Shown here: positions 10,584 through 26,523 of the stretch, piece after piece | How positions within the stretch are numbered: position 1 is the first letter of the stretch | Layout: each line of letters opens with the position of its first letter | DNA from: Pirellulaceae bacterium | GTDB lineage: Bacteria; Planctomycetota; Planctomycetia; Pirellulales; Thermoguttaceae | Direction: 5' to 3' | DNA length: 33,656 nucleotides | Assembly: GCA_012744395.1 (NCBI GenBank) | Contig: JAAYCB010000467.1 | Span: forward strand, 1-33,656 | Position numbers and translations under genes: made by a program | Notes under the pieces: generated by a model | What the model saw: the letters and a program-made list of their open reading frames with translations, nothing else | What the model was told of the DNA's origin: nothing | The model's database searches: none

Positions 10584-10859
10584 CCGACCTGGCCGCGGGG
10601 CAGCCATTCGCGTGGACTCTTCAGCTTGTGCCGTCGGCTTCGCCGCGCGCAGAGATGCAGAGACGCATGTGCCGCGACCGGTCGCACCCGTCCCCCTGGA
10701 GCCGCCGTGGCGCGGCCGTGGAAGACATCGACAATCAGGCCAAAAGGTCTGGCGGAATCTGGGACCGAACATGGACGTTGCGCGTCGTTGTGGGATCGGC
10801 CGCGTTCTGGATCGGCTTTCCGGCGGTTCCAAACGACCCGTACAATCGAGGTCAAACAG
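10584..10859 (+). other. Spacer between DUF1573 and cytochrome genes
   Basis: A 276-base spacer with no supported gene. It contains a perfect 12-bp palindrome GCGACCGGTCGC (10674-10685). Near its end is a TACAAT box (10841-10846) with a weak TTCCGG 17 bases upstream (10818-10823), which would start transcription only a few bases before the lipoprotein ATG at 10860. Confidence 0.35.
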
Positions 10860-12881
10860 ATGCTCATTGACAGGTTTTCGTCGCAAGCGGCACAGGCCGT
10901 CGCGTTGCTGATCCTCGGCTCTCTGGCAGCCCTGGTCGGCTGCGATTCCCCGCAGCGGGGCCAGCCGCCGGTGCCGCCACCGGCCGGGCCGGAAGGCTCG
11001 CAGGACGTCGTGCGCGATCCGTCCACCACAAAAGTCGGCCAGCCGCCCGCGAGTCCGCCCCTCCAGCCCGACACGCCACGGCTCCTCGAACTGGCGGCGC
11101 AGACGGACCAGTCGCCGATCCCGCAACGCGCCCCTGCCGTGCCCGGCGAGTTGGGCGGCGTCGCCACGGGAGGCCCCCCCGAGGCGGTCGCCGCGTCGGG
11201 GGAAACGCCGACTGCGGTTGGCGCGGAGACGCGGGGCGGCCCGCCGGTCGGCAAGCGGGCCGCCGCGGAGCCAGGCGCGGAGGATCGCACCGCGATTGCG
11301 CAGTCGTCGCCGCTGGCGCTGTCGGGGTTCTCGCCAAATCCGCTGCGTGGCGGGGTAGCGCCCTCCCCAGGCACCGTCAAGCCGGGCGTCCTGCCACAGG
11401 AGCGGGGCCCCGTGGAACCGCCGGCCGCCAAGACGGTCGAGGGGAAGCCGTTTGGCAAAGGCAAGCACAGCGGCCAGCCGTTTGACCCGATCCTCGAAAA
11501 TGGGCCGATCTTCGTCGGCTGGGAGCCGCCCAAGCTGGCCCTGGTGATCAGCGGGCGGCAGGACGGGTACCTCGAACCGTGCGGCTGTGCGGGATTGGAT
11601 CGCATGAAAGGCGGGCTCAGCCGGCGCCACACGCTGTTCGCGAAGCTCGAGGCGGACGGCTGGCCCACCCTCGGGCTCGACTGCGGCGGCCTGGTGAAAG
11701 GCTCCGGCAGGCAGGCCGAATTGAAGTTCGGCATGTCGATCGACGCCATGCAGCAGATCGGCTACGACGCGATCGCGCTGGGCAAGAGCGACCTGCGGTT
11801 GTCCGCCACGGAACTGCTCGCCCGCGTCGCCTCCACCGCGCAGGTGCAGAGCCCCTTCGTCTCGGCGAACGTGGCCGTGTTCGGGTTCGCGATGGGGATG
11901 ACCGCCGATCACCGGATTCTGGAGGCGGGCGGCCTCCGCGTCGGCGTCACCACGGTCCTGGGCGGCAAATGGCAGAAGGAGATCAACAACCCGGACATCG
12001 AGATGGCCGATCCCCGGGCGCGGCTCCGCGAGGTCCTGCCGAAGTTCGAGGGGAAGTGCGATCTGCTGGTGCTCCTGGCCCACGCCACGATGGAAGAGTC
12101 GGTGGAATTGGCGGAAGCCTTTCCGCAGTTCCACGTCGTCGTGACGGCCGGCGGCGCGCCCGAACCGCCGGACAGGGCCCAACCGATCAACGGCAAGACC
12201 CTCCTGGTTGAGGTCGGCGAGAAGGGGATGAACGCGATCGTCCTGGGAATCTACGGGGCCGATCAACCGATCCGCTATCAGCGCGTGCCGCTCGACTCGC
12301 GGTTCCCCGAGTCCGCGGCGATGAAGATGTTCATGCGGCAGTACCAGGAGCAATTGAAGCAGGACGGTCTGGACGGACTGGGAATTCGGCACATGCCCCC
12401 GCATCCCCAGAGGGAAGAGCTGGGCACGTTCGTCGGTTCGGCCGCCTGCGAGAGCTGCCACGAGCCGTCTTACGACGTGTGGCGGAAGACGGGCCACGCC
12501 AAGGCCTGGGAGACCCTCAAGGAGTTGGACCCGCCGCGCCACCATGACCCGGAATGCATTAGCTGCCACGTCGTGGGCTGGCACCCGACGCAGTATTTCC
12601 CCTACGAGGGCGGTTTCCTCCGCGAGGAAGAGACGCCAAGGCTCGTCGACGTGGGGTGCGAAAGTTGCCACGGTCCGGGCGAGAAGCATGTCGCTGCGGA
12701 AATGGGGTCCAACGCGGAGTTGCAGAAGAAGCTCCAACAGGCGATGGTCGTGACCAAGGAGCAGGCCCGCGACTCGAAGGTCCACTGGTGCTTGAACTGC
12801 CACGACCTGGACAACAGCCCGGACTTCGATTTCGACGAGTACTGGCCGCACGTCGAGCATCGGGAGTACGAAGACGAGTAG
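10860..12881 (+). CDS. Lipoprotein with phosphoesterase-like region and tetraheme cytochrome c region
   Basis: A 673-residue lipoprotein. The signal peptide ends in the lipobox ALVGC (Cys28). A Pro/Gly-rich low-complexity segment (about 30-215) follows. Residues about 220-500 resemble the metallophosphoesterase/5'-nucleotidase-like regions found beside cytochromes: 'LALVISGRQDGYLEPCGCAGLDRMKGGLSRR' (PCGC at 240-243), then 'IGYDAIALGKSDL' and 'CDLLVLLAHATMEES'. Residues 528-673 carry four CxxCH heme sites at Cys530, Cys566, Cys600 and Cys644, in a cytochrome c554-like arrangement with extra His ligand candidates ('KTGHAKAW', 'GEKHVAAE', 'WPHVEHRE'). The likely role is periplasmic electron transfer joined to a binding or hydrolytic domain; the substrate is unknown. 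A start further upstream would bury the signal, so 10860 is preferred. Confidence 0.88.
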   Translation: MLIDRFSSQAAQAVALLILGSLAALVGCDSPQRGQPPVPPPAGPEGSQDVVRDPSTTKVGQPPASPPLQPDTPRLLELAAQTDQSPIPQRAPAVPGELGGVATGGPPEAVAASGETPTAVGAETRGGPPVGKRAAAEPGAEDRTAIAQSSPLALSGFSPNPLRGGVAPSPGTVKPGVLPQERGPVEPPAAKTVEGKPFGKGKHSGQPFDPILENGPIFVGWEPPKLALVISGRQDGYLEPCGCAGLDRMKGGLSRRHTLFAKLEADGWPTLGLDCGGLVKGSGRQAELKFGMSIDAMQQIGYDAIALGKSDLRLSATELLARVASTAQVQSPFVSANVAVFGFAMGMTADHRILEAGGLRVGVTTVLGGKWQKEINNPDIEMADPRARLREVLPKFEGKCDLLVLLAHATMEESVELAEAFPQFHVVVTAGGAPEPPDRAQPINGKTLLVEVGEKGMNAIVLGIYGADQPIRYQRVPLDSRFPESAAMKMFMRQYQEQLKQDGLDGLGIRHMPPHPQREELGTFVGSAACESCHEPSYDVWRKTGHAKAWETLKELDPPRHHDPECISCHVVGWHPTQYFPYEGGFLREEETPRLVDVGCESCHGPGEKHVAAEMGSNAELQKKLQQAMVVTKEQARDSKVHWCLNCHDLDNSPDFDFDEYWPHVEHREYEDE

Positions 12882-12882
12882 C

Positions 12883-12921
12883 GCGGATGCGGCCCAGCCG
12901 CGGAGCGCGGGCCGCATCCGC
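12883..12921 (+). terminator. Perfect 13-bp hairpin after the cytochrome gene
   Basis: GCGGATGCGGCCC (12883-12895) pairs with GGGCCGCATCCGC (12909-12921) across a 13-base loop, starting 1 base after the stop codon. There is no T-run. It may be a terminator, or an interspersed palindromic repeat. Confidence 0.5.
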
Positions 12922-13084: not shown

Positions 13085-15286
13085 ATGAACCATTTCCGGA
13101 TTCAGCCCTGCCCGGCCACGGATGGTCGGGCGGGCCTTCTCGCCTCCCCCGCGGCGGAAACGCCCAGCGATCGCCTGGCCGCGTCGATCCGCCGATCGAT
13201 CCTCCTGGCGCGGCATTGGCTTCTCCGCGAGCAGCGGCCCGAGGGCCACTGGGTCGCCGAACTGGAGGGAGATTCAATCCTCCAGAGCGAGACGATCCTC
13301 CTCCTGGCCTTCTTCGGCCGCGAGACGTCCGATTTGGCCCGCCGCGCCGCGGAACGCCTCCTGGCCACCCAGTTGCCCGGCGGCGGCTGGTCGATGTATC
13401 CCGGCGGCGGCGTCGAGATCAGCGGCAGCGTCAAGGCCTATTTCGCGCTCAAGCTCACCGGGCACGACCCGAGCGCGGAATACATGCAGCGCGCGCGGCG
13501 CGCGATCCTCGCCCACGGCGGCGCCGACGCCGTCAACAGTTACACGCGATTCTACCTGGCGATCCTCGGGCAGATTCCCTTCGAAGAGTGCCCCGAGGTC
13601 CCGCCGGAGATAATATTTCTACCCAAGTGGTTTCCGATTAACTTATACGCGGTCAGCGCCTGGTCGCGGACAATGATCGTGCCGCTCTCGATCGTCTCGG
13701 CGCTGCGCCCCACGAAGCGGATCGACGCCGGCCGCGGGATTCGCGAGCTGTTCATCGCGTCGCCGCAAGACTGGCCCGAGCTGCGCTGCCCCGGCCGGAC
13801 CGCCGGCCGGGGCCGATTTGGTTGGGACCGTTTCTTCCGGGCGGTTGACGCGACATTCAAGTTCCTGCGGAAGCGCAACTGGCTGCCGTTGCGGAAGCGG
13901 GCCATCCAGGCCGCGGAGCGCTGGACGCTTCAAAGGACGGAGCGGAGCGACGGCCTGGGCGCGATCTACCCGCCAATCGTCTGGAGCCTGCTCGCGTTTC
14001 ACGCCCTGGGTTACGGCGACGACAGCCCCGAGGTCCAGGAGTGCTGGAAACAACTCGGCGACCTGGTCGTCGACGACGAGCAGGGCTGCCGCATCCAACC
14101 CTGCAAATCGCCGGTCTGGGACACCGCCATCGCCTTGCGGGCTCTTTCGGCAACCGGCCTCGAAAGATCGCACCCCGCCGCCGCGCGGGCCGTCGACTGG
14201 CTCCTCGACCGGCAGGTCGACCGGCCCGGCGATTGGTCGGAGACCGTCCAGGCCGAGCCGGGCGGCTGGTGCTTCGAATACAACAACGACTACTATCCCG
14301 ACTGCGATGACACGGCAATGGTGCTGATGGCCCTCCAGGACCAGTTCACCGAAGCCGCGCCGACCGCGGGGGCGCTGCCCCCCCAGTTGCGGCTGGTGGG
14401 CGAACCGGAGGGGGGCAATTCCCACCAGTGGCTGTACCACCACGCGCCCGCCAGTCGGGAGGATGCCTACCGCGGCCTGAAGACAATGGACGAGACGGCG
14501 GCTGCAATCGACCGCGGCCTCCGCTGGCTGCTGGCGATGCAGAACCGCGATGGCGGCTGGGGGGCCTTCGACCGCAACAACAACCGGCAGTTCCTCTGCC
14601 GCGTCCCCTTCGCCGATCACAACGCGATGATCGATCCGAGCACGCCCGACCTCAGCGGCCGCGTGCTGGAAGCCCTGGGGAAACTGGGGCTCGGCGCCGA
14701 ACATCCGGCGGTCAGCCGATGCGTGGCCTACCTCCGCGCGGCGCAGGAGGCGGATGGAAGCTGGTTCGGCCGCTGGGGAGTCAACTACGTGTACGGCACC
14801 TGGCAGGTGATCACCGGCCTGGTCGCGGTCGGAGTGCCGGCGGACGATCCCGCCATCGCGGCCGGCGCCAATTGGCTGCTCGCCCACCAGCAGCCTAGCG
14901 GCGGGTGGGGAGAGTCGCCCGAGACCTATGCCGATCCGACGCTCCGCGGGCAAGGCCCGGTCACCGCCTCGCAGACCGCCTGGGCCGTTCTCGGCCTGCT
15001 GGCCGCGGGCATGGAAGCGCATCCCGCCGTCGGCCGCGGCATCCGCTTTCTTGTCGAGCACCAGGGCCCCGACGGCAAATGGGACGAACCGGAGTTCACC
15101 GGCACCGGTTTTCCCCAGGTGTTCTACCTCCGCTACCACTATTACCCGCTGTACTTTCCGCTGCTGGCCCTCTCGCGATTTGCCGTCTCCGCCGCCATGG
15201 GCATCGCCGGCGCGGCGGCACCTGCCGCGCGGCGGGGCAACCGCGACGGCCAGTCCGCGACCGTTCGCGCCGCCGCCGCCGGATAG
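13085..15286 (+). CDS. shc: Squalene-hopene cyclase
   Basis: A 733-residue class II triterpene cyclase, a little longer than the usual 630-680. It cyclises squalene to hopene/hopanol at the membrane. The catalytic acid motif DCDDTA is at residues 406-411 (DxDD at 406-409). QW repeats appear at GHWVAEL, GGWSMYP (100-106), GGWCFEY (393-399), GGWGAFD (490-496), GSWFGRWG, GGWGES and GKWDEP. The conserved 'PKWFPINLYAVSAWSRT' is at 180-196. Residues about 420-467 form an extra Pro/Gly-rich segment after the catalytic helix. A ribosome site AGGAAGAGAAC precedes the ATG. Codons for residues 176-187 (13610-13645) are unusually AT-rich (ATA, ATA, CTA, TTA). hpnH and hpnG follow. Confidence 0.97.
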   Translation: MNHFRIQPCPATDGRAGLLASPAAETPSDRLAASIRRSILLARHWLLREQRPEGHWVAELEGDSILQSETILLLAFFGRETSDLARRAAERLLATQLPGGGWSMYPGGGVEISGSVKAYFALKLTGHDPSAEYMQRARRAILAHGGADAVNSYTRFYLAILGQIPFEECPEVPPEIIFLPKWFPINLYAVSAWSRTMIVPLSIVSALRPTKRIDAGRGIRELFIASPQDWPELRCPGRTAGRGRFGWDRFFRAVDATFKFLRKRNWLPLRKRAIQAAERWTLQRTERSDGLGAIYPPIVWSLLAFHALGYGDDSPEVQECWKQLGDLVVDDEQGCRIQPCKSPVWDTAIALRALSATGLERSHPAAARAVDWLLDRQVDRPGDWSETVQAEPGGWCFEYNNDYYPDCDDTAMVLMALQDQFTEAAPTAGALPPQLRLVGEPEGGNSHQWLYHHAPASREDAYRGLKTMDETAAAIDRGLRWLLAMQNRDGGWGAFDRNNNRQFLCRVPFADHNAMIDPSTPDLSGRVLEALGKLGLGAEHPAVSRCVAYLRAAQEADGSWFGRWGVNYVYGTWQVITGLVAVGVPADDPAIAAGANWLLAHQQPSGGWGESPETYADPTLRGQGPVTASQTAWAVLGLLAAGMEAHPAVGRGIRFLVEHQGPDGKWDEPEFTGTGFPQVFYLRYHYYPLYFPLLALSRFAVSAAMGIAGAAAPAARRGNRDGQSATVRAAAAG

Positions 15287-15449: not shown

Positions 15450-16466
15450 ATGCGATTTCCCCTCTCCCTGACCCGTGCGATGGCCGCCTACGTGATGCGA
15501 CAGAAGCTTGCCGGCCGCAAGCGGTTCCCCTTGGTCTTGATGCTCGAACCCCTCCATGCCTGCAATTTACGGTGCAGCGGTTGCGGCCGGATTCGCGAAT
15601 ACGCGGCGACGCGCAACCAGCGATTGACCGTGGACGACTGCCTCGCCGCCGTTGACCAGTGCGGGGCGCCGATCGTCAGCGTCTGCGGCGGCGAGCCCTT
15701 GATCTATCCGCAGATCGGGGAACTCGTCGAGCGGCTCACGGACCGGAAAAAGCACGTCTATCTCTGCACCAACGGCACGCTGCTCTCCGAACGGCTCGAT
15801 CAGTTCCGCCCCACGAGTCGGCTGTTCATCAACGTCCACCTCGACGGCATGGAATCGACCCACGATGCAATCGTCCAGCGGGGCGGCGTCTTCGCTCGGG
15901 CGGTCAGCGGGATCCAGGCCGCCAAGGCGGCCGGCTTCCTCGTCTACACCAACACCACGGTCTACCGCCAAACCGATGTCCATGAACTCGCCGTGCTGTT
16001 TCAGTACCTGGCGGAGTTGCGGGTGGACGGGTTCATGATCTCGCCGGCCTACGGGTACGAAGCGGTCGGGCGCGACAGGCGCGGCAGCGAGCAGATCTTC
16101 ATGACCCGCGCGGAGATCCACGCCAAGTTCCGCCAGGCCCGGCCGCTGCTGGCCGCGTTCAACCTCGTCACCTCCCCCCTGTATCTCGATTTCCTCTGCG
16201 GCGGCCGCGAACTGTCCTGCGCGGCCTGGGCCAACCCCACCTACAACGTGCGGGGCTGGAAAGGGCCCTGCTACCTGATCACCGATCGCCACTATCCGCG
16301 GTTCGCGGATTTGCTTGCCGAGACGGAATGGGATAGACTCGCTTCTGGTAGCGATCCGCGTTGCCACGACTGCCTGGTGCACTGCGGATTCGAGCCGGCG
16401 GCCGTCCTCGCGGCCGAAAAGAGTCTTCGCGATGTCCTGAAGATGGCCCTCTGGCAGTTCTCCTGA
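15450..16466 (+). CDS. hpnH: Adenosyl-hopene transferase HpnH (radical SAM)
   Basis: A 338-residue radical SAM enzyme that joins the 5'-deoxyadenosyl group of SAM to hopene, the first step of side-chain building in bacteriohopanepolyols. The 4Fe-4S motif is ACNLRCSGC with Cys38, Cys42 and Cys45. 'SVCGGEPLIYPQI' (about 74-86) is the SAM-binding GGE region. The C-terminal cysteines in 'CHDCLVHCGFE' and 'GWKGPCYLI' are typical of HpnH and may bind a second ligand. Length is normal. It lies 163 bases after shc and 16 before hpnG, so hpnH and hpnG are probably one transcript. Confidence 0.95.
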   Translation: MRFPLSLTRAMAAYVMRQKLAGRKRFPLVLMLEPLHACNLRCSGCGRIREYAATRNQRLTVDDCLAAVDQCGAPIVSVCGGEPLIYPQIGELVERLTDRKKHVYLCTNGTLLSERLDQFRPTSRLFINVHLDGMESTHDAIVQRGGVFARAVSGIQAAKAAGFLVYTNTTVYRQTDVHELAVLFQYLAELRVDGFMISPAYGYEAVGRDRRGSEQIFMTRAEIHAKFRQARPLLAAFNLVTSPLYLDFLCGGRELSCAAWANPTYNVRGWKGPCYLITDRHYPRFADLLAETEWDRLASGSDPRCHDCLVHCGFEPAAVLAAEKSLRDVLKMALWQFS

Positions 16467-16482: not shown

Positions 16483-17373
16483 ATGGTCCTGCGACATATC
16501 GTTCGCCAGTGGTTGGGCTCTTTGGCCCAAGAAAAGGTCCACCAGACGATCGTCCAGGCCGCGCGCGATTCGGTTGCCTCCGCCGTCGAGGAGGCCGAGC
16601 GCGACAGCACCGAGCCCGAGCGGCGGAAGTCGGATGTCGGGGTGGTATTCGCCCTGGGGATCGAGGCGGGAGGGTTGGAAGACCTGCTTTCCGAAGTGGT
16701 CACGGTCCGCGGCCCCCTGTTCACCCTCCGCCGCGGCCTGGCCGGATCGCGCCGCATCGTTCTGGCGGAGTCGGGGCCGGGCGCCGCGGCGGCCGCCCGC
16801 GCCGCTGAAACGCTGATCGCCGCCCATCAACCCGACTGGCTCATCTCGGCCGGCTTCGCCGGCGCCCTCAACGAAGACGTCAAACGCCACGACCTGCTCC
16901 TGGCCGACTCGGTGATCCGCCCCGACGGCGCCCGGATCGCCATCCACCTCCCGATTGATCCGGCCAACCTGCCCGGCTGCCCCAACGTCCATGTCGGCGG
17001 GCTTTGCACGGCCGACCGCATCATCCGCCTCCCGGACGAGAAACGAAAACTTGGCGAGGAGTCGGCCGCCCTGGCCGTTGACATGGAGACGTTCGCCGTG
17101 GCGGAAGTCTGCCGGCGCCGGAACCTGCCGCTGATCGCGGCCCGGATCATCAGCGACGCCGTCGGCGACCAACTCCCCGACGACCTGGAGCAGCTGGCGC
17201 GCCAGCAGACGCCGGTGCGGAAGCTCGGCGCGGTCTTCGGCGCGGTGCTGAACCGCCCCGCGAGCGTCAAGGACATGCTCCAGCTGAAGGAGAACGCCCT
17301 GCTCGCCTCGGACCGGCTGGCCGGCCTCCTCCAGTCGATCATCCGCCAGCTTACCGCTCCACCGCCCCCTTAA
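16483..17373 (+). CDS. hpnG: Hopanoid-associated nucleoside phosphorylase HpnG
   Basis: A 296-residue purine nucleoside phosphorylase-family protein. After HpnH it is expected to release adenine from adenosylhopane, leaving a phosphoribosyl- or ribosylhopane. Family marks are 'ESGPGAAAAARAAETLI' (96-112), 'ISAGFAGALNEDV' (121-133), the substrate-binding 'AVDMETFAVAEVC' (198-210, Glu202) and 'ISDAVGDQ' (223-230) with the catalytic-region Asp. An N-terminal helix of about 50 residues (charged, amphipathic) precedes the domain and is unusual; it could associate with the membrane or reflect a start further in. Its 3' end overlaps the convergent toroid gene by 23 bases. Confidence 0.88.
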   Translation: MVLRHIVRQWLGSLAQEKVHQTIVQAARDSVASAVEEAERDSTEPERRKSDVGVVFALGIEAGGLEDLLSEVVTVRGPLFTLRRGLAGSRRIVLAESGPGAAAAARAAETLIAAHQPDWLISAGFAGALNEDVKRHDLLLADSVIRPDGARIAIHLPIDPANLPGCPNVHVGGLCTADRIIRLPDEKRKLGEESAALAVDMETFAVAEVCRRRNLPLIAARIISDAVGDQLPDDLEQLARQQTPVRKLGAVFGAVLNRPASVKDMLQLKENALLASDRLAGLLQSIIRQLTAPPPP

Positions 17374-20300
17374 GCGGGTCCGGCGGCGACTGCTCCGCGG
17401 CGGGCGACGGCTGCTTGTCGAGTTCGCGAAACAGCGGCAGGTGGCGATAGTAGACTTCGAGCATCAGCAGGCCCATCGCGGTGACATAGTGCCGCCCACC
17501 GGCATGGCCCCAGCGATCCGCCACGGGAACGTCCGGGTTCCAGCTCCCGATCAGCGGCCCGCTCTGAACCTGCGTGGCTTCCAGCAGGGGGCGCAGCCGG
17601 TCGTTCCACGCCTTCCAGTAATCGCCCTGCATCTGGAACATCACTTGCGTCGCGTAGTAGAGGTAGTAGACGTCGCGGGCGGCGCGCGTCTCCTCCGGCC
17701 GCGGCGGAAGACTCCGCTGCAAGATGTTGGCGCCGGCGATCATCTCCGGATGCGTCCGGTGGCGGCCGAGGTAGAGTCGCATCAACAGCCCCTCGGCGGT
17801 CATCGCCAGGTTCGGGACCCGCCCCTGCCGCTGGGCGTCCGTATCGAGCGCGTAGGGGTTGTAGCGATACTCGGCGCCCGAGCGGCCCTGGGCCAGGTCG
17901 AGCCATCCGGACACCTTTTCCAACGACCCCTGGGGAACCTCCAGACCCGCCATCTGGGCGCTCTTCAAGGCCATCAACTTCCAGCCGGAGACGGACGTGT
18001 CGGACTCGACGCCGGCAAGATACCGCCAGCCGCCGCGTTGGGGATGCTGCGCGGCGAGAATGAAGCCGATTGCCCTCTTCAGCGGCTCGTGCAGGTCTTC
18101 GTCCCAGGTCATTCCATAGGCTTCGCTCAGCGCAATCGTGGCAATGCCGTTGCCATAGAACTGGGCGTAAACGGTCTGGTCCGTTTGATCGCTGAACAGC
18201 TGCCCATCCGCCTGTTGGTTGGCAATCAGCCAGCGGAGGCCGGCGCCGACCTGGTTCCGATACTTGTCGTCAATATGGGTGTATCCCTTGCCGAGAAACG
18301 CCAGCAGGGCCAGGCCGGTCGCGGCCGTGTCGGAATTCATCTGGCCCAATCCGGCGTCAACCGTCGGGGGCACGACTCCCGGCGGCAGCCGATCGAGGGC
18401 CCAGCGCCCGTCGGGGAACTGGCAGCGGGCAAGGAAGTGCAATCCTTGTTCGACAGCGCGGTCGGAGCTCTCCGTCGCGCCGTGGGCCTTGGCCACTTCG
18501 CCGCGCTTGCCCGGAAAACGCTGCTGGAACGGCAAGGCCGGCGGCTTCCCTGCGCTGCTCCCCATCGGCGGCGCGGTCCGATCGAGCATGAAGCGCCCCG
18601 GGCTGGTGTGGACCACGATGCTCTCGGGCCGGGCACGGCGGCTGGGGACGCCCAACAGGGGCGAAGGCGGCTCGCTCAGACCGCCCGGCCCGGCCACCGG
18701 TCCGGCCAGCACGGCGGGTCCCGCCTGGCGCCGCGCAACCCCCGTGGGACGGGCCTCCCCGCCCGCCACTCGCGCAGGACGGGCCTCTCCGCCCGTCGCC
18801 CCGCCATCTTCCGCGGCAACCGCGCCCGGCGGCGCCCCGGCCTGCCCGCCACGGGGCGCTCCGCTCTGGTCTGCTGCTTCCGCCGGCATACCCGCAATCT
18901 CCCCGCCAAGACTCCCGGTCCGCGGCGTCCGAGCCAGCGGTTCGCGGCCCCCGCCGCCGGAATCGGCAGGTTCCGTTCGATCCGCCGCGGCGGCGCGGCT
19001 GGGCACGGCCGTCGCTACGCGCGACTCCCAGAGACTGCCGGCCGGGGGAGACAGCGACGACCGGCCGATCGTCAGATCGGTCGTCGCGCCGGCAAGCCTC
19101 CGTGTCGGCCCGGTCGCGGAGGCCTCGATCGCCGTGTCGGGCTCGTTTCCGACGTCCGCGCCGGTTGATGCGACTTGAGCCAGCCTGGCGGTCTCGTCGC
19201 CGGCAATCCGCGGTCCGCGCGGCGACCGCGAGAGCGGATTGCCCGCTCCGTGATCTTCCGCGGATGGCCGCTCGCCCAGGTTCGCCCGCGCCCGGCCCAG
19301 GCCCCCAACGCCTGCCGGCGGGAGCGGCATCGCCGCCGGTGACTGCGGCGCGGACGCCGCTCCAGGCAAGCTCGCCACGAATCGCCCGGGCGCGCGGCGC
19401 AGGCGGGAACGGGCCTGCTCCACGTCGATCGCCGCCTCGGGATCAGCCGCGGTGTCGGGCGGTTCGACCACTGCCGGGGCCGCGGCGGCATCGAGCCGAT
19501 CGACCCGGCGGCTCCGCGTCACCGGCGGGCCGGCCGGTCCGGCGGCCGCCCGGACCGGAATTGCCGTCTCCTCGCGGCCTCTCTGGACCGGGAGTGCCGG
19601 GCTTGGCAAGACGGAAGCCAACGCACGGCCCAGCGTCTCGCCCGCCCGAGCCGGGCCCAGAGACTGCTCGGTTCGCTGCTGGGACGCGGCCGCGTTCGGC
19701 GACAGAACCACCGCCGGATCTTCGGGCGTGGCGGGAGAGGCCGGCTGGGGCAGCGTCTCCCTTGCCTCCAACCGGTCGGGCTTCGCTTGCCGGCTGATCT
19801 GGATCCCGCTCGGACTCTCGCCCCGGTGCGGAACCGCCAGATCGGCTTTGTCGGGCTGGATCGGCGCCGGAGGCTGCTCTGCCAGCAGCGGGACCGGCAA
19901 TGGCCGTTCGGGCGCAATCTCGTGTTCCACGAGCACCTTCTCGATCGCCGTCGGCTGGCTCTCCCGCGGCGGCTCGACTTCGACCGGCTGGGCAAAACTC
20001 AGCGGCTCCTCACGGGGCACAATCTGCCAAATGTGGTAGTCGGGAACGACGACCAGGTCGTCCCCCTCATCGAACATCTTCCGCGCCTCTTCGATCCGCT
20101 CGGCGATCGCCTCCAGATACTGGTCCCGCAGGATGAGCCCCAACCCGAGATGGAGGATCATCCCCACCAGCAGGCAAAACAACACGCGGCGCGCCACCCA
20201 GCGCTGGAGCAGGAGGATCGACAGGGTCGCCGCCAGATAGGCCAGGACGACGGCCGCCAACCGGCCCCAGCCCGTCTGGATCACCGCCCGATCCGTGAAA

Positions 20301-20461
20301 TCGAGCATCGCCGGGTCGGGAAATTCGCTCGTCGCCGCAACCAGCCCGGCAGCCGCGCCGGCCACGGTCAAGACGATCAACTGGATCGGCCAGAGCTGCT
20401 CGTCGAAGTCGCCGGGCGGCCGAATGTTGGGCAGCGGGTGGTCGAGGGTCTGCCGTGTCAT
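17351..20461 (-). CDS. Membrane-anchored Pro-rich protein with C-terminal alpha/alpha-toroid domain
   Basis: A 1,036-residue protein, last gene of a TPR-ExbB-ExbD operon. Three membrane helices lie near the N-terminus (about 24-43, 67-87, 91-111), which would place the rest in the periplasm if the N-terminus is cytoplasmic. Residues about 135-645 are Pro/Ala/Arg-rich and probably disordered, including 10-residue repeats GGEARPxxVA. Residues about 655-1010 are a squalene-cyclase/prenyltransferase-like alpha/alpha toroid: 'AVEQGLHFLARCQFPDGRWAL', 'NSDTAATGLALLAFLGKGYTH', 'AIGFILAAQHPQRGGWRYL' and 'VPNLAMTAEGLLMRLYLG'. The cyclase DxDD acid motif is absent, so it is probably not a terpene cyclase. 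The tail-to-tail overlap with hpnG is 23 bases. The role is unknown; see findings for a TonB/TolA-like hypothesis. Confidence 0.85.
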   Translation of the reverse strand: MTRQTLDHPLPNIRPPGDFDEQLWPIQLIVLTVAGAAAGLVAATSEFPDPAMLDFTDRAVIQTGWGRLAAVVLAYLAATLSILLLQRWVARRVLFCLLVGMILHLGLGLILRDQYLEAIAERIEEARKMFDEGDDLVVVPDYHIWQIVPREEPLSFAQPVEVEPPRESQPTAIEKVLVEHEIAPERPLPVPLLAEQPPAPIQPDKADLAVPHRGESPSGIQISRQAKPDRLEARETLPQPASPATPEDPAVVLSPNAAASQQRTEQSLGPARAGETLGRALASVLPSPALPVQRGREETAIPVRAAAGPAGPPVTRSRRVDRLDAAAAPAVVEPPDTAADPEAAIDVEQARSRLRRAPGRFVASLPGAASAPQSPAAMPLPPAGVGGLGRARANLGERPSAEDHGAGNPLSRSPRGPRIAGDETARLAQVASTGADVGNEPDTAIEASATGPTRRLAGATTDLTIGRSSLSPPAGSLWESRVATAVPSRAAAADRTEPADSGGGGREPLARTPRTGSLGGEIAGMPAEAADQSGAPRGGQAGAPPGAVAAEDGGATGGEARPARVAGGEARPTGVARRQAGPAVLAGPVAGPGGLSEPPSPLLGVPSRRARPESIVVHTSPGRFMLDRTAPPMGSSAGKPPALPFQQRFPGKRGEVAKAHGATESSDRAVEQGLHFLARCQFPDGRWALDRLPPGVVPPTVDAGLGQMNSDTAATGLALLAFLGKGYTHIDDKYRNQVGAGLRWLIANQQADGQLFSDQTDQTVYAQFYGNGIATIALSEAYGMTWDEDLHEPLKRAIGFILAAQHPQRGGWRYLAGVESDTSVSGWKLMALKSAQMAGLEVPQGSLEKVSGWLDLAQGRSGAEYRYNPYALDTDAQRQGRVPNLAMTAEGLLMRLYLGRHRTHPEMIAGANILQRSLPPRPEETRAARDVYYLYYATQVMFQMQGDYWKAWNDRLRPLLEATQVQSGPLIGSWNPDVPVADRWGHAGGRHYVTAMGLLMLEVYYRHLPLFRELDKQPSPAAEQSPPDPLKGAVER
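18744..18797. repeat. Palindromic 30-bp-period repeat inside the toroid gene
   Basis: Plus-strand GGACGGGCCTC[C/T]CCGCCCG occurs at 18747-18765 and 18777-18795, 30 bases apart. The second copy forms a hairpin GACGGGC-CTCTCC-GCCCGTC. In the gene frame each unit encodes GGEARPxxVA, followed by a diverged third unit. It looks like a short interspersed palindrome captured in a disordered coding segment. Confidence 0.6.
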
Positions 20462-20479
20462 CTTCCCAGCGCGGAGGGG

Positions 20480-20899
20480 TTATCCGCTTTCCTTTCGCGT
20501 CGTGATCCGGTAGTCGTGAATCTTGGCCTTGTTGCAGGCGTTCATGGCCGCAACCAGAAACTCGACCCGGCCCCGGCGGTCCGCCCGGAGAATCACCGAG
20601 GCCCGGCCGGGATTATTGACGCGGACCGCGTTGAGCGCCCGCTCGAGTTCCGCCAGCGACAACTTCTGCCCCGATACGAAATACTGGCCGTTCTGGTCGA
20701 TGTTGACGATCGTCTCCCGCGGTTTGCTGGTCCGCGGCTGGGCCTCGCTGGCATCCGGGAGCAGCACATTCATCTCGCGCTCTTCATCGGCGAACTTCGT
20801 GGCCACGAGAAAGAAGATCAGCAACAGAAACACGACGTCGATCAGCGGCGTGAGCGTCAGGTTGGCCAGCGCTTGGCCTTTATTGAGATTGACTGCCAT
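20480..20899 (-). CDS. exbD: ExbD/TolR family biopolymer transport protein
   Basis: A 139-residue inner-membrane protein. A short cytoplasmic tail is followed by one transmembrane helix 'LTPLIDVVFLLLIFFLVATKF' (about 16-36) with the proton-path Asp21 typical of ExbD/TolR. The periplasmic domain (about 40-139) contains 'VNIDQNGQYFVSGQKLSLAELERAL' and 'VILRADRRGRVEFLVAAMNACNKAKI', the standard ExbD fold. With ExbB it would convert the proton gradient into mechanical work on a periplasmic partner. A strong ribosome site (GAGGAG, 7 bases before ATG) precedes it. It is 18 bases from both neighbours in the operon. No TonB or Tol partner gene is visible. Confidence 0.94.
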   Translation of the reverse strand: MAVNLNKGQALANLTLTPLIDVVFLLLIFFLVATKFADEEREMNVLLPDASEAQPRTSKPRETIVNIDQNGQYFVSGQKLSLAELERALNAVRVNNPGRASVILRADRRGRVEFLVAAMNACNKAKIHDYRITTRKESG

Positions 20900-20917
20900 G
20901 GCGGGCTCCTCGGGCGG

Positions 20918-21928
20918 CTATGGCTTCTTGACCGGGTCCGGCGAACGGCGCGCCGGCTCCACCGCTTCGCGCGCGATCGGATTGCGCGGGTACTCCGCGA
21001 CGTCGATCGTCTCGTGGTTGCCCCGCAGCCGCCCCTCGAATCGCTCCAGTTGGGGCAACAGCGTCAGGATGAACTCATCGAGCTCGCGGAACAGCCGCTG
21101 GATCCGCCCTTCGAACATGTGCGCCAGCAGCGCGGCGGGGATCGCAATCGACAGCCCGGCAAACGTCGTCACCAGGGCCTTGTAGATTCCCTCGGCGAGG
21201 TAGTCGGCGCGGTTCGCGCCGGGCTGCAAGTGAACGGTCTCGAAAAACGCCTGGATCATGCCGCCGACCGTGCCCAGCAGTCCCAGCAGCGGCGCGATGC
21301 CCACGGCCAGGGTCAGCCAGCGGACGTTGGCATAGAGCCTCCCCGCCTCCCGCTCGTTCGCGTCGCGGTGCGCCTGTTCCACCTCGCCGTGGGGGCGGCC
21401 CAGCCGCACGAGCATCGCCCGCAGGACGCGCGACGCCGAGGAGGGATACTTGTTGCAGAGCGCGTACGCCCGCCGCGGATCCAGCCCTCCCTTCTGCCCC
21501 GCCAGCCGCCGCAGCCCGTCGAACAGCACGGGCGGCAAGACCTTGCCGCGCCGCAAGGCGATCATCCGCTCCAGTCCGAACGTCACCACCAGCAGCGACA
21601 CCAGCCCGAGCGGGACCATCAGGAAACCGCCGCGCTTGGTCAAGTCCCAGAGGTCGATTCGCGGCAAGTCGAGCTGGCCGCCCCCCGGCAAGCCGCCCGA
21701 ATCCTCCTCCGCCTCTTCGCTCTCCAATGCCTTCTCCGCGAGCAATTCCGCGTCGACCGGTTCCGCGGGCGCCGTCACGGTCTCTCCGCCGGCCCCCAGA
21801 CCGCCCGCCGCCTGGCCGGGCGGCGCGTCCTCTGCCCCGAGTGCCGCCGCTTGCCAGACGGCAACGATCCACGCGGCGGCCAATGCCGATCGCCGCAGCC
21901 CTAGGTTTGCTGCTGGAGACATGATCAT
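20918..21928 (-). CDS. exbB: MotA/TolQ/ExbB family proton channel protein
   Basis: A 336-residue inner-membrane protein, longer than E. coli ExbB/TolQ because of an N-terminal signal-like helix (about 12-30, ending at ALGAED) and an acidic periplasmic segment (about 33-95). Membrane helices follow at about 105-124 ('FLMVPLGLVSLLVVTFGLERMI'), 'LTLAVGIAPLLGLLGTVGGMIQAFF' (about 205-229) and 'ALVTTFAGLSIAIPAALLAHMF' (about 252-273). The GLLGTVxGM motif and Thr-rich third helix mark the family and build the proton channel around ExbD. The N-terminal extra domain is common in 'ExbB-like' proteins of planctomycetes. The start is uncertain between 21928 and 21922. Confidence 0.93.
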   Translation of the reverse strand: MIMSPAANLGLRRSALAAAWIVAVWQAAALGAEDAPPGQAAGGLGAGGETVTAPAEPVDAELLAEKALESEEAEEDSGGLPGGGQLDLPRIDLWDLTKRGGFLMVPLGLVSLLVVTFGLERMIALRRGKVLPPVLFDGLRRLAGQKGGLDPRRAYALCNKYPSSASRVLRAMLVRLGRPHGEVEQAHRDANEREAGRLYANVRWLTLAVGIAPLLGLLGTVGGMIQAFFETVHLQPGANRADYLAEGIYKALVTTFAGLSIAIPAALLAHMFEGRIQRLFRELDEFILTLLPQLERFEGRLRGNHETIDVAEYPRNPIAREAVEPARRSPDPVKKP

Positions 21929-21962
21929 TCAAACCCCGAAAGTATCGACTTGCCACGCAACG

Positions 21963-24900
21963 CTATCGTTTCAATTCCGCCAGCCGCTCCTTGGCGGCCT
22001 TCGCCGTCTCCGCCTGCGGGTACTTCGCGACCAGCTCTTGATACATCTTCACCGCTTGCGTCCGCTTGCCCAGCACCTCGAAACACCGCCCGGCTTCGTA
22101 CGTCGCCTCGGCCTGCCAGCGTTCGACGCTGTAACCGTAGGCGACCTTGAAGAAACTCTTCACGGCCTCGGCATGCTCCTTCCGTTCGAACTGGATCTCG
22201 CCGATCATGTACTGGGCCTTGGCCGCGGTCTCGCTCCCCGTCTTGGCGATCACCTGCTCGTAGAGCCCGATCGCCTCATCGTACTGGCCCAGGTTCTGCC
22301 GGGCCCAGCCCTGTTCGCAGAGCGCCTGGGGCAGGTAGCGCGACCCGGGGCACTCTTCGGCCGCCCGCTTCAACCACGCAAGACTCTCCTCCCAACGCTT
22401 CAATTGCCCCGCCGACTCCCCCGCATGGAGCAGCCAGATCGCCCGGAAGTCCTCATTCGTCAGACCATCGACGCGCCCGTAGGCCGCCAGGGCCTCGGCA
22501 TACTTCTTCTGCTGGTAAAGCGATTCGGCGACCATCAGCAGCCCGTCGGCCTTCAGCGACCCGGAGGGAAACGCCGCCGCCTGGTACGCGAACGCCTCCT
22601 CCGCCGACGCATACGCCTGGTTGTGATAGTAGGACCAGCCCAGCTTGTGGGCGGCCTTTTCCGCCAGGGGCGTCTGCCCGGCCGCCTGCATCGCCTCGTA
22701 ATACGCCACCGCCGCCTTGTCATACTCCTTGCGGTCGTAGAAATACTCGCCGATATGGTGCTGCGCCTCGGCCGCCAGCGGGCTCTCGGGCGAGTCCTTG
22801 GCCAGCCGGGCGAACTGCTCGATCGCCTCCTTGCGGCGCTCCGCCAGCAGCAGCGCCCAGGCCAGCTGGTATCGGGCGTTGTCCGCGCCGGCGTAGTCGG
22901 GCGACTCGCTGAGCAGCCCGGCGAGCGTCTTGGCGGCCTCCGCGTTCTGTTCCAGCCCGATCTGGCACAACCCCAGCACATACAGCGCGTCGGGCCGCAA
23001 CGCCGCCGGCAGTTGCCCCCCAACCGCGGCCGTCAGGTCCTCGGCCGCCGGCGCGTATTTCGCCATCTGCTGCCGCGCCAGGCCGCGGAAATACCGCGCC
23101 TCCGCTCCGCTCGGGTGGTCCGCAAAGCGGCTCAACAGCTGGCTGGCCGTCGCCTCCGCTTCGGCCGGCCGCTTGTCATTCAACTGGGCGCAGGCCAATT
23201 GGTGCAGGGCGTGCGGCACGAGCGGGCTGCCCTCCGCGTGCTCCAGCACCCAGCGAAACTCCTGCTCCGCCGCGGCGTAGTCGCCCTTGGCGAACTTGAT
23301 CTCCCCGAACCGGTAGTGGGCCTTGTCCAGCAGGCTGCTCTTCGGAGACTCGGCGAAGAGCCGTTCCAGCGCCGCCGCCGCCTTCTCGTCGTTCCCCTGC
23401 CCCCGCTCCGCCTCCGCCAGCAGCAGCAGCGACTGGTCCGCGCCCCGCCAGGCCGGCGCGGCGGCCAGCGAAGCCTCCAGGTGCTTGATCGCGGCGTCAG
23501 ACTGCCCGGCCGCCAGCGCGCTCTGACCGGCCATCGTCTCTGCTTCCGCCAGCAGGTTCTTGTCGCGGATCTCGCCCAGGATCGGCGCGATGAACTCGAT
23601 CGCCTCGGCGTGCTTTTTCTGCATCTGGAGAGCCGCGGCGCAGCGCACCCGCCACAGCTGCTGATCGGGGTGATTGGCGTGCTGCTCCAGCAAACGGCGA
23701 TACAGCCGCTCGCTTTCGCTCGCCTCGCCCAGCTGGAGGCGGGCCTCCGCCGCCACGTAGGTCACGTCCGGCGCAAGCCCATGCTCCTGATAGGCCGCGA
23801 GGAACTTGGCCGTCTGATCGCGCGCCAGTTCGTAGCGGCCCACCTCGAGGGCCGCGAAACCGGCCATGTAAAGCGCCTCGGGAGCCACGGCGTCCTCGGG
23901 ATGCTTGGCGGCAATCTGGGCATAGCGATCGACCGATTCGCCGCGCCGCGAAGGCTGCTCGTAAAGCGCGTCGGCCTGGTCCATCATCAACGCCGCGGCA
24001 AACGGGGAACTCCCCGCGGCAGCCAGCCCCGCTTCGGCAACCTGGAAGGCCTCCCCCGGTTGGCCCAGCGCCAACAGGCTCCGCGACGCCCAATGGGCCG
24101 CCTCGACGGCCGCCGCGCCTCCGGCTTGCAGCACGCCGGCCAGGACCTCGCCCGTGCGGGCATGATTGCCCGCCAGGCAGTAGTTCTTGCCCGCCGCAAC
24201 CATGGCCGCGGATGCGTGCTTCGACTGGGGAAAGTCGGTGGCGATCGAGGCGTAGAGATCGGCGGCGCGGGCGAACTGCTCCATTCGCGCAAGCGCCTCC
24301 GCGCGGCGGAACGCGGCCAGATCCGCCATCGCGAATCCCGTTGCCGCCGCCTCGGCAAAATACCCCGCCGCGTCGTTCCAGCGGCCCACCGCCGCAAGCG
24401 TGTTTCCGCGCCGCAAAAAGACCTCGCCCGCCAGGCTGTGCCCCCGGTGCTTGTGCAAAAACTGATCGTACGTCTTGCCCGCTTCCTCCGGCTTGTCGAG
24501 TTCCTCCTGCGTCACGCCCAGAGCGTACAGGATGTCGGGCATCAGCTTGTGGTCGGGATAGGCCGCAACGGTCTGCTGGTAAATCTTCTCGGCGCGATCC
24601 TTCTCGCCCAACATGTAGGCGCACTCGCCTTGGTAAAACAGCGCGTCGGGCCGATGCGCCCCGTTGGGATACTTGTCGGCGAGGGTCTTCAGCGTCGCTT
24701 CCGCCTCGCGGTAGCCGGCCGGCTGCTCGCGCGACGCGAGGTTGAACTGGGACACTCCAAGATACAGATACGCCGAGTCGAGCGACTCGAACTTCGGCCG
24801 CTCCTTGATCAATCGCGACAGGGCGTCGCGCGCCGCGGCGTATTCGCCCTGCTGGTACAGGCACACGCCGAGATAGTACATGGCGTGCCCCGCACGCGCG

Positions 24901-25112
24901 TCGTTAGGAAAATCCTTGACAAACGCGGCCCACGCCTCCGCGGCCAGGTCATAGGACTCGAGGTTCTGAAGTCGAACCGCCGCCGCGTACTGCCGCGCGG
25001 CCGCGCCAGCCGGCTCCTGCCCGCAAAAACCCCAGGTCGCCTGGAACCAGCACAGCGCCAGGCAGACGCCCCCCGCCACCCCGTTCCGAAACAAGCCGTT
25101 CATCACAGACAT
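21963..25112 (-). CDS. Very large exported TPR-repeat protein
   Basis: A 1,049-residue protein built almost wholly of tetratricopeptide repeats. A signal peptide ends near residue 30 ('CLALCWFQATWGFCGQ'). From about residue 40 to 1,049 there are roughly 25-28 TPR-like helix pairs in 34-37-residue steps, for example 'AMYYLGVCLYQQGEYAAARDALSRLIKERPKF', 'DALFYQGECAYMLGEKDRAEKIYQQTVAAYPDH' and 'AQYMIGEIQFERKEHAEAVKSFFKVAYGY'. TPRs bind partner proteins; the spacing resembles CpoB/YbgF and outer-membrane assembly TPRs. As first gene of an ExbB-ExbD-toroid operon it is probably the periplasmic partner. The start at 25112 has GGAG 5 bases upstream; an in-frame ATG at 25103 is possible. Confidence 0.9.
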   Translation of the reverse strand: MSVMNGLFRNGVAGGVCLALCWFQATWGFCGQEPAGAAARQYAAAVRLQNLESYDLAAEAWAAFVKDFPNDARAGHAMYYLGVCLYQQGEYAAARDALSRLIKERPKFESLDSAYLYLGVSQFNLASREQPAGYREAEATLKTLADKYPNGAHRPDALFYQGECAYMLGEKDRAEKIYQQTVAAYPDHKLMPDILYALGVTQEELDKPEEAGKTYDQFLHKHRGHSLAGEVFLRRGNTLAAVGRWNDAAGYFAEAAATGFAMADLAAFRRAEALARMEQFARAADLYASIATDFPQSKHASAAMVAAGKNYCLAGNHARTGEVLAGVLQAGGAAAVEAAHWASRSLLALGQPGEAFQVAEAGLAAAGSSPFAAALMMDQADALYEQPSRRGESVDRYAQIAAKHPEDAVAPEALYMAGFAALEVGRYELARDQTAKFLAAYQEHGLAPDVTYVAAEARLQLGEASESERLYRRLLEQHANHPDQQLWRVRCAAALQMQKKHAEAIEFIAPILGEIRDKNLLAEAETMAGQSALAAGQSDAAIKHLEASLAAAPAWRGADQSLLLLAEAERGQGNDEKAAAALERLFAESPKSSLLDKAHYRFGEIKFAKGDYAAAEQEFRWVLEHAEGSPLVPHALHQLACAQLNDKRPAEAEATASQLLSRFADHPSGAEARYFRGLARQQMAKYAPAAEDLTAAVGGQLPAALRPDALYVLGLCQIGLEQNAEAAKTLAGLLSESPDYAGADNARYQLAWALLLAERRKEAIEQFARLAKDSPESPLAAEAQHHIGEYFYDRKEYDKAAVAYYEAMQAAGQTPLAEKAAHKLGWSYYHNQAYASAEEAFAYQAAAFPSGSLKADGLLMVAESLYQQKKYAEALAAYGRVDGLTNEDFRAIWLLHAGESAGQLKRWEESLAWLKRAAEECPGSRYLPQALCEQGWARQNLGQYDEAIGLYEQVIAKTGSETAAKAQYMIGEIQFERKEHAEAVKSFFKVAYGYSVERWQAEATYEAGRCFEVLGKRTQAVKMYQELVAKYPQAETAKAAKERLAELKR

Positions 25113-25530
25113 CTTCTCTCCATCCAACCCCCTATACAAAGCCCCACGTGCGAGGGGAGGCGTGACAGACAGCCGATCCCATCAGCGGCTCCCCTCCAAC
25201 ACGGGAAAGTTGGCGGCCGCTCCCTGTCGACCGGCCGACCCGGGCAAACCGGCCCCGATCGCCCTGATCCGGGCTTGATCGGGGATGCTCGTTCACGCGT
25301 CGGGGATTCTTTTTGCCGATATCCCTTCGAGTTGCCGATGGCGGCAGCGGCGGGTATCGCTCGGCACCGCCTTGTCTGTTTATGATATACCAATACGACT
25401 GCGCCGTGGAGCAACTGGCACGTCCAGCCGGCTGCCTTCCGGCCGTGCACCACCCGTCCGGGGAGTGCAAAACAGGCCCCCTCCCCCCAACCGTGGCGGG
25501 CGCCCTGCTGTTTTTCTGCGGAGCCAAGCT
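25113..25530. other. Divergent intergenic region, TPR gene / epimerase gene
   Basis: A 418-base spacer between two divergently read genes, so it should hold both promoters. A local AT-rich island at 25369-25400 (TTGTCTGTTTATGATATACC) is the most promoter-like part for the plus strand, but no box pair with good spacing is visible. Near the TPR gene, the minus strand reads TTTGTATAGG at about 25140-25131, a possible -10. CCCCACGTGCGAGGGG (25142-25157) is a partial palindrome just behind it. No supported gene is present. Confidence 0.35.
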
Positions 25531-26523
25531 GTGAAGCACTGCTTTGTCACCGGCGGCGCCGGATTCATCGGAAGTCACCTGGTCGAGCACCTGCTCGGGC
25601 AAGGGCATCGTGTCTCCGTCGTCGACGACGAATCCACCGGTTCGATCGACAACTTGAAACAGGTCATCGACCATCCGCACCTTGAATACACCCGCGGCAC
25701 GGTGGCGGATCGCCAACTCGTCCGCCGCCGGTTGCTCTCGGCGGACGAGGTCTATCATCTGGCCGCCGCCGTCGGCGTGCAACTCATCGCCCGTTCTCCG
25801 ATCCACACCATCGAAGCCAACATCTACCCCACCGAGGTCATCCTCGACGAGCTTGGCCGCATGCACCAGGACGGGCACAAGGTGAAGCTGTTTCTCGCCA
25901 GCACAAGCGAGGTTTACGGCAAGAACCCCAAGCCGATTTACGAGGAGGGCGACGACCTCGTATTCGGCCCCACAACCCGGCCCCGCTGGTCTTACGGGGT
26001 GTCCAAGGCGATCGATGAATTCCTCGCCCTGGCGTATTTCACCGAACGCGGGCTGCCAGTCGTCGTCGGCCGGTTCTTCAACGTCGTGGGCCCCCGCCAG
26101 ACCGGCGCATACGGCATGGTTCTGCCGCGCTTCATCGATGCCGCGCTCGCCGGACGCCCCCTGATCGTCCACGACGACGGCCAGCAGACCCGCTGCTTCG
26201 CCCATGTGGCCGATGTCATCTACGCGATGACCGCCCTCATGGACACGCCCCGCGCCGCCGGAAGAGTCTTCAACATCGGCAGCGAATCTCCGATCACGAT
26301 TCTCGATCTGGCCAGAAAAGTCACCGCGGCGATCCACCCGGAATTGCCGATCGAGTTCCAAAGCTATGAAGACGCCTACTCCGTCAATTTCGAGGACTGC
26401 CGGGCGCGGGTCCCAAGCCTGGCCAAGCTCCGATCGGTAATCCCCTACGAGCCCAAGCACACGCTCGACGCGATTATCCAGGAGATCATCGCCTGGAAAA
26501 AAGATGAGCCCCACGGGCCGTGA
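25531..26523 (+). CDS. NAD-dependent sugar-nucleotide epimerase/dehydratase (extended SDR)
   Basis: A 330-residue extended short-chain dehydrogenase acting on a nucleotide sugar. The Rossmann motif GGAGFIGSH is at residues 8-16. The active site has 'ASTSEVYG' (123-130) supplying Ser/Thr, and YGVSK with Tyr155 and Lys159. 'GRFFNVVGPRQTGAYGMVLPRFI' and 'DDGQQTRCFAHVADVIYAM' are substrate-binding segments as in UDP-glucose 4-epimerase, UDP-glucuronate decarboxylase and dTDP-glucose dehydratase relatives; the exact substrate cannot be read. The start is the GTG at 25531, directly before the beta1 strand, preceded by GCGGAG. Upstream in-frame sequence is low quality. It may supply sugars for surface glycans, though it is not adjacent to the 5.4-9.3 kb glycan operon. 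Confidence 0.9.
   Translation: MKHCFVTGGAGFIGSHLVEHLLGQGHRVSVVDDESTGSIDNLKQVIDHPHLEYTRGTVADRQLVRRRLLSADEVYHLAAAVGVQLIARSPIHTIEANIYPTEVILDELGRMHQDGHKVKLFLASTSEVYGKNPKPIYEEGDDLVFGPTTRPRWSYGVSKAIDEFLALAYFTERGLPVVVGRFFNVVGPRQTGAYGMVLPRFIDAALAGRPLIVHDDGQQTRCFAHVADVIYAMTALMDTPRAAGRVFNIGSESPITILDLARKVTAAIHPELPIEFQSYEDAYSVNFEDCRARVPSLAKLRSVIPYEPKHTLDAIIQEIIAWKKDEPHGP

Follow-up and report, generated by a model that had tools for sequence, protein, structure and literature searches.

A planctomycete ExbB/ExbD operon encoding a candidate force transducer that ends in an alpha/alpha toroid

What does an ExbB/ExbD proton motor act upon in a bacterium whose genome yields no TonB? The question is raised by a four-gene operon on contig JAAYCB010000467.1 (assembly GCA_012744395.1) of a Pirellulaceae bacterium (Planctomycetota), of which positions 1 to 33,656 of the forward strand, 33,656 nucleotides in all, form the window analyzed here. 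ExbB and ExbD together build a 5:2 motor and, to our knowledge, the only recognized transducers of such 5:2 proton motors are TonB, TolA and the recently proposed vWA proteins. The first-pass annotation had seen no TonB, TolA or TolB in the window, and we found TonB_C, TonB_2, TolB_N and the TonB-receptor plug to be absent from the entire source genome, which is 98% complete; the same genome has seven ExbD matches. The operon encodes, besides ExbB and ExbD, a large TPR protein and a membrane-anchored protein ending in an alpha/alpha toroid. We consider it probable that the four proteins form a trans-envelope machine driven by the proton motive force (PMF) and working like Ton and Tol, with the toroid protein as a force transducer bearing a new end domain.

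The genes lie on the minus strand from 25112 to 17351 in the order TPR, ExbB, ExbD, toroid, separated by 34, 18 and 18 bases, so that the open reading frames, order, strand and gaps of the first-pass annotation are all borne out. The ExbB/TolQ-family protein (20918..21928; all operon features are on the minus strand) matches PF01618 (MotA_ExbB) at 79.6 bits, and the ExbD/TolR-family protein (20480..20899) matches PF02472 at 98.1 bits, both above the Pfam cut-off. When ExbB is aligned with the TolQ and ExbB chains of solved motors, the conserved GLLGTV and LVTT pore segments align, and ExbD aligned with solved ExbD has, within LTPLID21, the predicted proton-path aspartate Asp21 (20837..20839) at the TP-x-ID position, which places the pair in the ExbB/ExbD motor family. 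The extra periplasmic domain that had been ascribed to ExbB survives only in part: an N-terminal extension exists, but it consists of a signal-like helix and about 65 A/G/P/E-rich residues and is not evidently a folded domain.

The candidate transducer (17351..20461, 1,036 aa) had been described as three N-terminal helices, a Pro/Ala-rich spacer of about 500 residues and a C-terminal toroid, and this plan was recovered. Hydropathy places transmembrane (TM) helices at residues 26-44 (20330..20386), 68-86 (20204..20260) and 91-113 (20123..20191; hydropathy core 93-111), the third being a TonB/TolA-like anchor with ARR just before it, on what is predicted to be the cytoplasmic side; orthologs show the same plan. 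The linker has 526 residues (14% Pro, 17% Ala); its Pro/Ala-rich part, assigned by composition, is 18542..20029 and is predicted to be periplasmic. The linker leads to a C-terminal domain (17402..18541) that is confirmed by AlphaFold2 and structure search, on a model of middling confidence, as an (alpha/alpha)6 toroid.

TonB and TolA dock through an SHLS helix, Ser-x3-His-x6-Leu-x3-Ser, in which cryo-EM places TonB Ser16/His20 against ExbB Ser34/Trp38 and TolA Ser18/His22 against TolQ Ser28/Trp32 (PMC12215075). After ARR, TM3 of the window protein reads VLFCLLVG100MILH104LGLGLIL111 and thus contains a motor-docking motif, G100-x3-H104 (20150..20164); the motif reads S-x3-H in the majority of relatives. 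A Leu follows at H+7. We counted this as an SHLS helix in which His and Leu are kept, the first Ser is Gly and the last Ser is lost. The first-pass annotation had proposed a comparison of the protein's first helix with that of TonB; the docking motif is present, but the third helix carries it. Across the order and the phylum, a membrane helix before the linker has [SGA]-x3-H in 100 of 114 anchored toroids, 92 of them with Ser, and several of the exceptions have Asn or Tyr in place of His. When the last helix of each protein was shuffled, S-x3-H arose in a mean of 7.9 of the 114, versus the 92 observed. Other TM segments of the same loci had S-x3-H in 18 of 782 cases, two of which are overlapping windows on the TonB of locus L117, while some come from artefact frames. 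A search with TonB_C recovered true TonBs of this order, and they have the same motif in the same place (e.g. SALLH, SLVFH, SLAFH). At L117 (2419-6667), a true TonB with the anchor SLLVH is encoded two genes away from a toroid protein that stands alone and has the anchor SLLFH.

The receiving side of the putative contact can also be followed. Ser111 of ExbB (21596..21598) is the positional equivalent of E. coli ExbB Ser34 and TolQ Ser28, equated by gapless position as S-x9-R/K: TM1 ends in Glu-Arg, and the Ser precedes this Glu by nine residues. This residue was readable in 31 clusters, 30 by script and L018 by eye from its ExbB (MSLLVVTFAVER). All 29 clusters whose toroid has [SGA]-x3-H keep the Ser, and both His-less clusters have lost it: toroid ALFCY in L061 and ALLLV in L085 go with ExbB Ala and Gly, respectively (2/2 vs. 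0/29; Fisher P = 0.002). L061 and L085 sit on separate branches of the tree. Such a co-loss is the pattern that direct contact between toroid protein and ExbB would leave. Motif conservation and co-loss together support docking of TM3 on TM1 of ExbB, which would occur through an (S/G)-x3-H / Ser contact as in TonB and TolA.

Conservation data were gathered from the neighbourhoods of the 40 best matches, of 40 weaker ones and of 20 matches elsewhere in the phylum, and from a tree built on 120 toroid domains. Five orthologs in named genomes (Planctomycetota, several of them labelled Pirellulales or Blastopirellula) all have the order TPR, ExbB, ExbD, toroid. Toroids of the window type form a clade of 37 (Shimodaira-Hasegawa-like approximate likelihood-ratio support, SH-aLRT, 99). 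Five members are cut by contig ends and were left out of the linkage count; among the 32 with readable upstream DNA, ExbD immediately precedes the toroid gene in 28, in most cases with ExbB and a TPR gene ahead of it. The first-pass annotation had staked its proposal on toroid proteins not being found mostly without ExbB/ExbD, and for the window type they are not; co-encoding with the motor, a trait of the TonB/TolA transducer family, is the rule. Its central suggestion, that ExbB/ExbD energize the toroid protein, gains support from this linkage, from the docking motif and from co-variation with the ExbB contact residue.

Three further ExbD-linked toroid clades lie outside the window-type clade. 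In the two-helix class, the same four-gene order occurs in L010, L120, L128 and L129, and L124 is seen with ExbB-ExbD; L010 belongs to the source genome and is its second full TPR-ExbB-ExbD-toroid cluster. In the one-helix class, ExbB-ExbD lies directly upstream of the toroid gene in L104 and L112. Loci L098 (1377-11499) and L106 (1927-9472) contain ExbB, two to four ExbDs, an unassigned membrane protein, a toroid gene and a large TPR gene. The four separate ExbD-linked clades and the second full cluster support the view that these proteins are transducers. Toroid relatives as a whole are more widespread, occurring in 58 of 58 genomes of the window's order; across the phylum they turned up in 34 of 40 genomes, often as tandem pairs and mostly with the docking motif. 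L193, L195, L199 and L200, from other planctomycete classes, are tandem one-helix toroid gene pairs with no ExbB/ExbD nearby.

Several points count against a motor-driven toroid protein. The motif Ser is replaced by Gly in the window toroid itself, the TM assignments were made from hydropathy alone, and the co-loss comprises two events, found after the fact. Window ExbB has no equivalent of Trp38, the second TonB contact in E. coli, and a full E. coli-type Ser-Trp contact can be rejected; however, this Trp is also missing from two ExbBs of the order that are linked to TonB (L147 and L151), which makes its absence uninformative. Four of the 32 window-type toroids (L053, L058, L065 and L071) have no ExbB/ExbD nearby, L062 and L064 have ExbD with no ExbB nearby, and most one-helix toroids do not stand beside ExbB/ExbD. 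Linkage to ExbB/ExbD therefore characterizes four clades, the window-type one among them, rather than toroid proteins in general. At L053 (8147-14724), the TPR and toroid genes are adjacent and ExbB/ExbD are missing between them, through either complete loss or service by a motor in trans.

The unlinked clade members would also fit a looser arrangement, in which the four genes are simply co-regulated as an envelope unit, the target of ExbB/ExbD is a transducer encoded elsewhere and the toroid protein is merely a neighbour. ExbB/ExbD are able to serve transducers in trans, which speaks for this arrangement. Against it stand the TonB-type motif in the toroid helix, the co-loss with Ser of ExbB, the association of toroid and ExbD in four separate clades and the absence of TonB from the genome, and we regard it as very improbable. 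A more substantial competitor starts from the toroid itself. AlphaFold2, run on six orthologs, gave an alternating-helix toroid (predicted template-modelling score, pTM, 0.72; mean predicted local distance difference test, pLDDT, 66) that is weak in the last ~50 residues; more than 100 positions of the domain are invariant across six orthologs. In structure searches the model came closest to squalene-hopene cyclases and to sugar epimerases and glycosidases of the (alpha/alpha)6 type (Foldseek E down to 1e-5; VIA-align Z ~25); the VIA-align list held no TonB- or vWA-type fold, which excludes nothing. Across 120 phylum-wide toroid domains, E779, W811, Y813, D820, W826, Y866, Y931, W951 and R989 are near-invariant. 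Such a fold, shared with sugar epimerases, GH76, GH105 and terpene cyclases, with so many conserved aromatic and charged residues, would suit an envelope enzyme or glycan-binding protein tethered to the motor, with PMF positioning or feeding the enzyme and force transmission secondary. However, a purely structural or binding role would also account for these residues, and no known catalytic signature was recognized: the cyclase DxDD motif is absent from the window domain and from 113 of the 120 relatives, and none of the 120 has the alpha-2-macroglobulin-type thioester CGEQ. We consider a tethered enzyme or glycan binder unlikely.

The neighbouring genes might suggest still another role. Convergent to the operon lie a squalene-hopene cyclase (SHC) gene (13085-15286), HpnH (15450-16466) and an HpnG-like phosphorylase (16483-17373), the last overlapping the end of the toroid gene by 23 bases, and the cyclase-like fold would agree with a part in hopanoid synthesis. 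However, among the window-type loci checked L016, the closest relative, is alone in keeping these neighbours, the DxDD motif is missing and the domain is periplasmic by predicted topology; we reject the link as scarcely credible. The toroid is likewise no squalene cyclase by identity: it reaches 15.5 of the 26.1 bits required for PF13243 (SQHop_cyclase_C) and 28.9 of the 322.7 bits for TIGR01787, missing both curated cut-offs as well as DxDD, whose absence makes cyclase activity unlikely. It shares with squalene-hopene and terpene cyclases the toroid fold and this weak sequence similarity (28.9 bits), but differs from them in being a single, membrane-anchored and predicted periplasmic domain that falls under every curated cut-off.

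How does the putative toroid-ended transducer compare with the systems already described? With TonB-ExbB-ExbD it shares the motor, the S-x3-H-x6-L motif, which in TonB contacts a Ser in TM1 of ExbB, the Pro-rich spacer and a beta-like segment after the helix; it differs in its two extra TM helices, in the TPR gene of the operon and in a genome without TonB_C or receptor plug. With TolQ-TolR-TolA and the Tol-Pal system including CpoB it has in common the motor, the transducer plan and a TPR protein, but no TolA C-terminus and no TolB are present, and the ~1,050-residue TPR protein falls far under the CpoB cut-off. Identity with TonB or TolA was rejected, as Pfam finds in the toroid protein only a weak SQHop_cyclase_C match and no TonB or TolA C-terminal domain; identity with Tol-Pal was rejected on the genome-wide absence of TolB_N. 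The genome has three OmpA-domain matches, and a Pal-like protein is possible.

The closest parallel is found in the vWA force transducers with TPR and TolQ/TolR-like genes that have been proposed for PVC (Planctomycetota-Verrucomicrobiota-Chlamydiota) bacteria (PMC12204202). These share with the window protein the Ser-His membrane helix, the Pro-rich linker, a globular domain at the end, a setting among TPR and motor genes, and the phylum. However, their end domain is vWA rather than an alpha/alpha toroid, they have one helix and a linker of ~100 residues rather than three TM helices and 386-1201 aa, and they usually come with two TolR-like genes (TPR, TolQ-like, two TolR-like), whereas the window has TPR, ExbB and a single ExbD. 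Pfam finds no vWA domain in the window toroid, and its toroid fold rules out membership in the vWA family. The source genome has a cluster of this kind at L130 (5969-12665; vWA, TPR, ExbB, ExbD, ExbD, TPR), whose vWA protein (PF13519, E 4e-5, just under the cut-off) has the anchor APSWMVSMLLHALALLAIAMAM with motif SMLLH. The anchor of the toroid paralog L011, TPSWLLSMILHVILLLAMAMLYL, is nearly the same. One anchor module thus bears two unrelated end domains within a single genome.

Beyond docking, the predicted machine can be sketched by analogy, and we infer the motor's action on the toroid protein. In TonB, the D-box adds a strand to the ExbD dimer and so binds it (PMC10907165). A short, conserved beta-like segment after TM3, LVVVPDYH (20033..20056), kept as roughly [VL]xP[DE][YF] in much of the window-type clade, is a candidate D-box or motor box and may bind the periplasmic ExbD dimer in the same way. 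The linker would then span the periplasm and the toroid would grip a target. Linker length falls with the number of helices, from 386-1201 aa (median 683) in the three-helix class to medians of 231 aa in the two-helix and 91 aa in the one-helix class; a relation of this trend to the wide planctomycete periplasm would be speculative.

The first operon gene (21963..25112) encodes the exported TPR protein of about 1,050 residues that had been foreseen: 1,049 aa from its ATG, with a signal-like N-terminus and many Pfam TPR matches. A TTG 27 bases upstream of the ATG at 25112 opens a longer mechanical frame; we prefer the ATG because the 87%-identical L016 ortholog begins there. The protein scores 324 bits against TIGR02795 (cut-off 90.1), summed over 10 repeats, and 117.7 bits against the CpoB equivalog NF008068 (cut-off 383). 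Most orthologous clusters likewise begin with such a TPR gene, whose product is 27-87% identical over almost its full length, and from this conserved linkage the protein is most likely the toroid's partner or scaffold on the outer-envelope side. Upstream of it lies a divergent NAD-dependent sugar epimerase/dehydratase gene (25285-26523), with a homolog at the same place in L016, L017, L066, L075 and L078; the pairing may be meaningful. Elsewhere in the window, a long minus-strand frame (10485-12917, 810 aa) has no Pfam or NCBIfam match.

The principle of a motor-driven transducer with another end domain is given, for vWA, in PMC12204202, in which the terms toroid, squalene and prenyltransferase do not occur. 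Our search of the open-access literature found no paper on a toroid-ended version, which is no proof of absence, and returned nothing on squalene-oxidase-repeat proteins in planctomycetes. The relatives found across the phylum suggest that toroid-ended transducers are a large family that has apparently not been described. It is a more doubtful proposition that this family, with several to more than 10 copies per genome, has replaced or supplemented TonB and TolA in Planctomycetota and that its toroid is an active or ligand-gripping domain for handling glycans; if true, proton flow would directly drive the handling of envelope glycans or macromolecules across an unusually wide periplasm. A toroid-ended family that shares the anchor helix with known transducers, but not the end domain, would make the anchor a modular adaptor for different effector domains. 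Planctomycetota genomes, including the source genome, can be without TonB, TonB receptors and TolB, and such a family would give this phylum, whose envelope biology is poorly understood, a concrete candidate for energizing the outer membrane.

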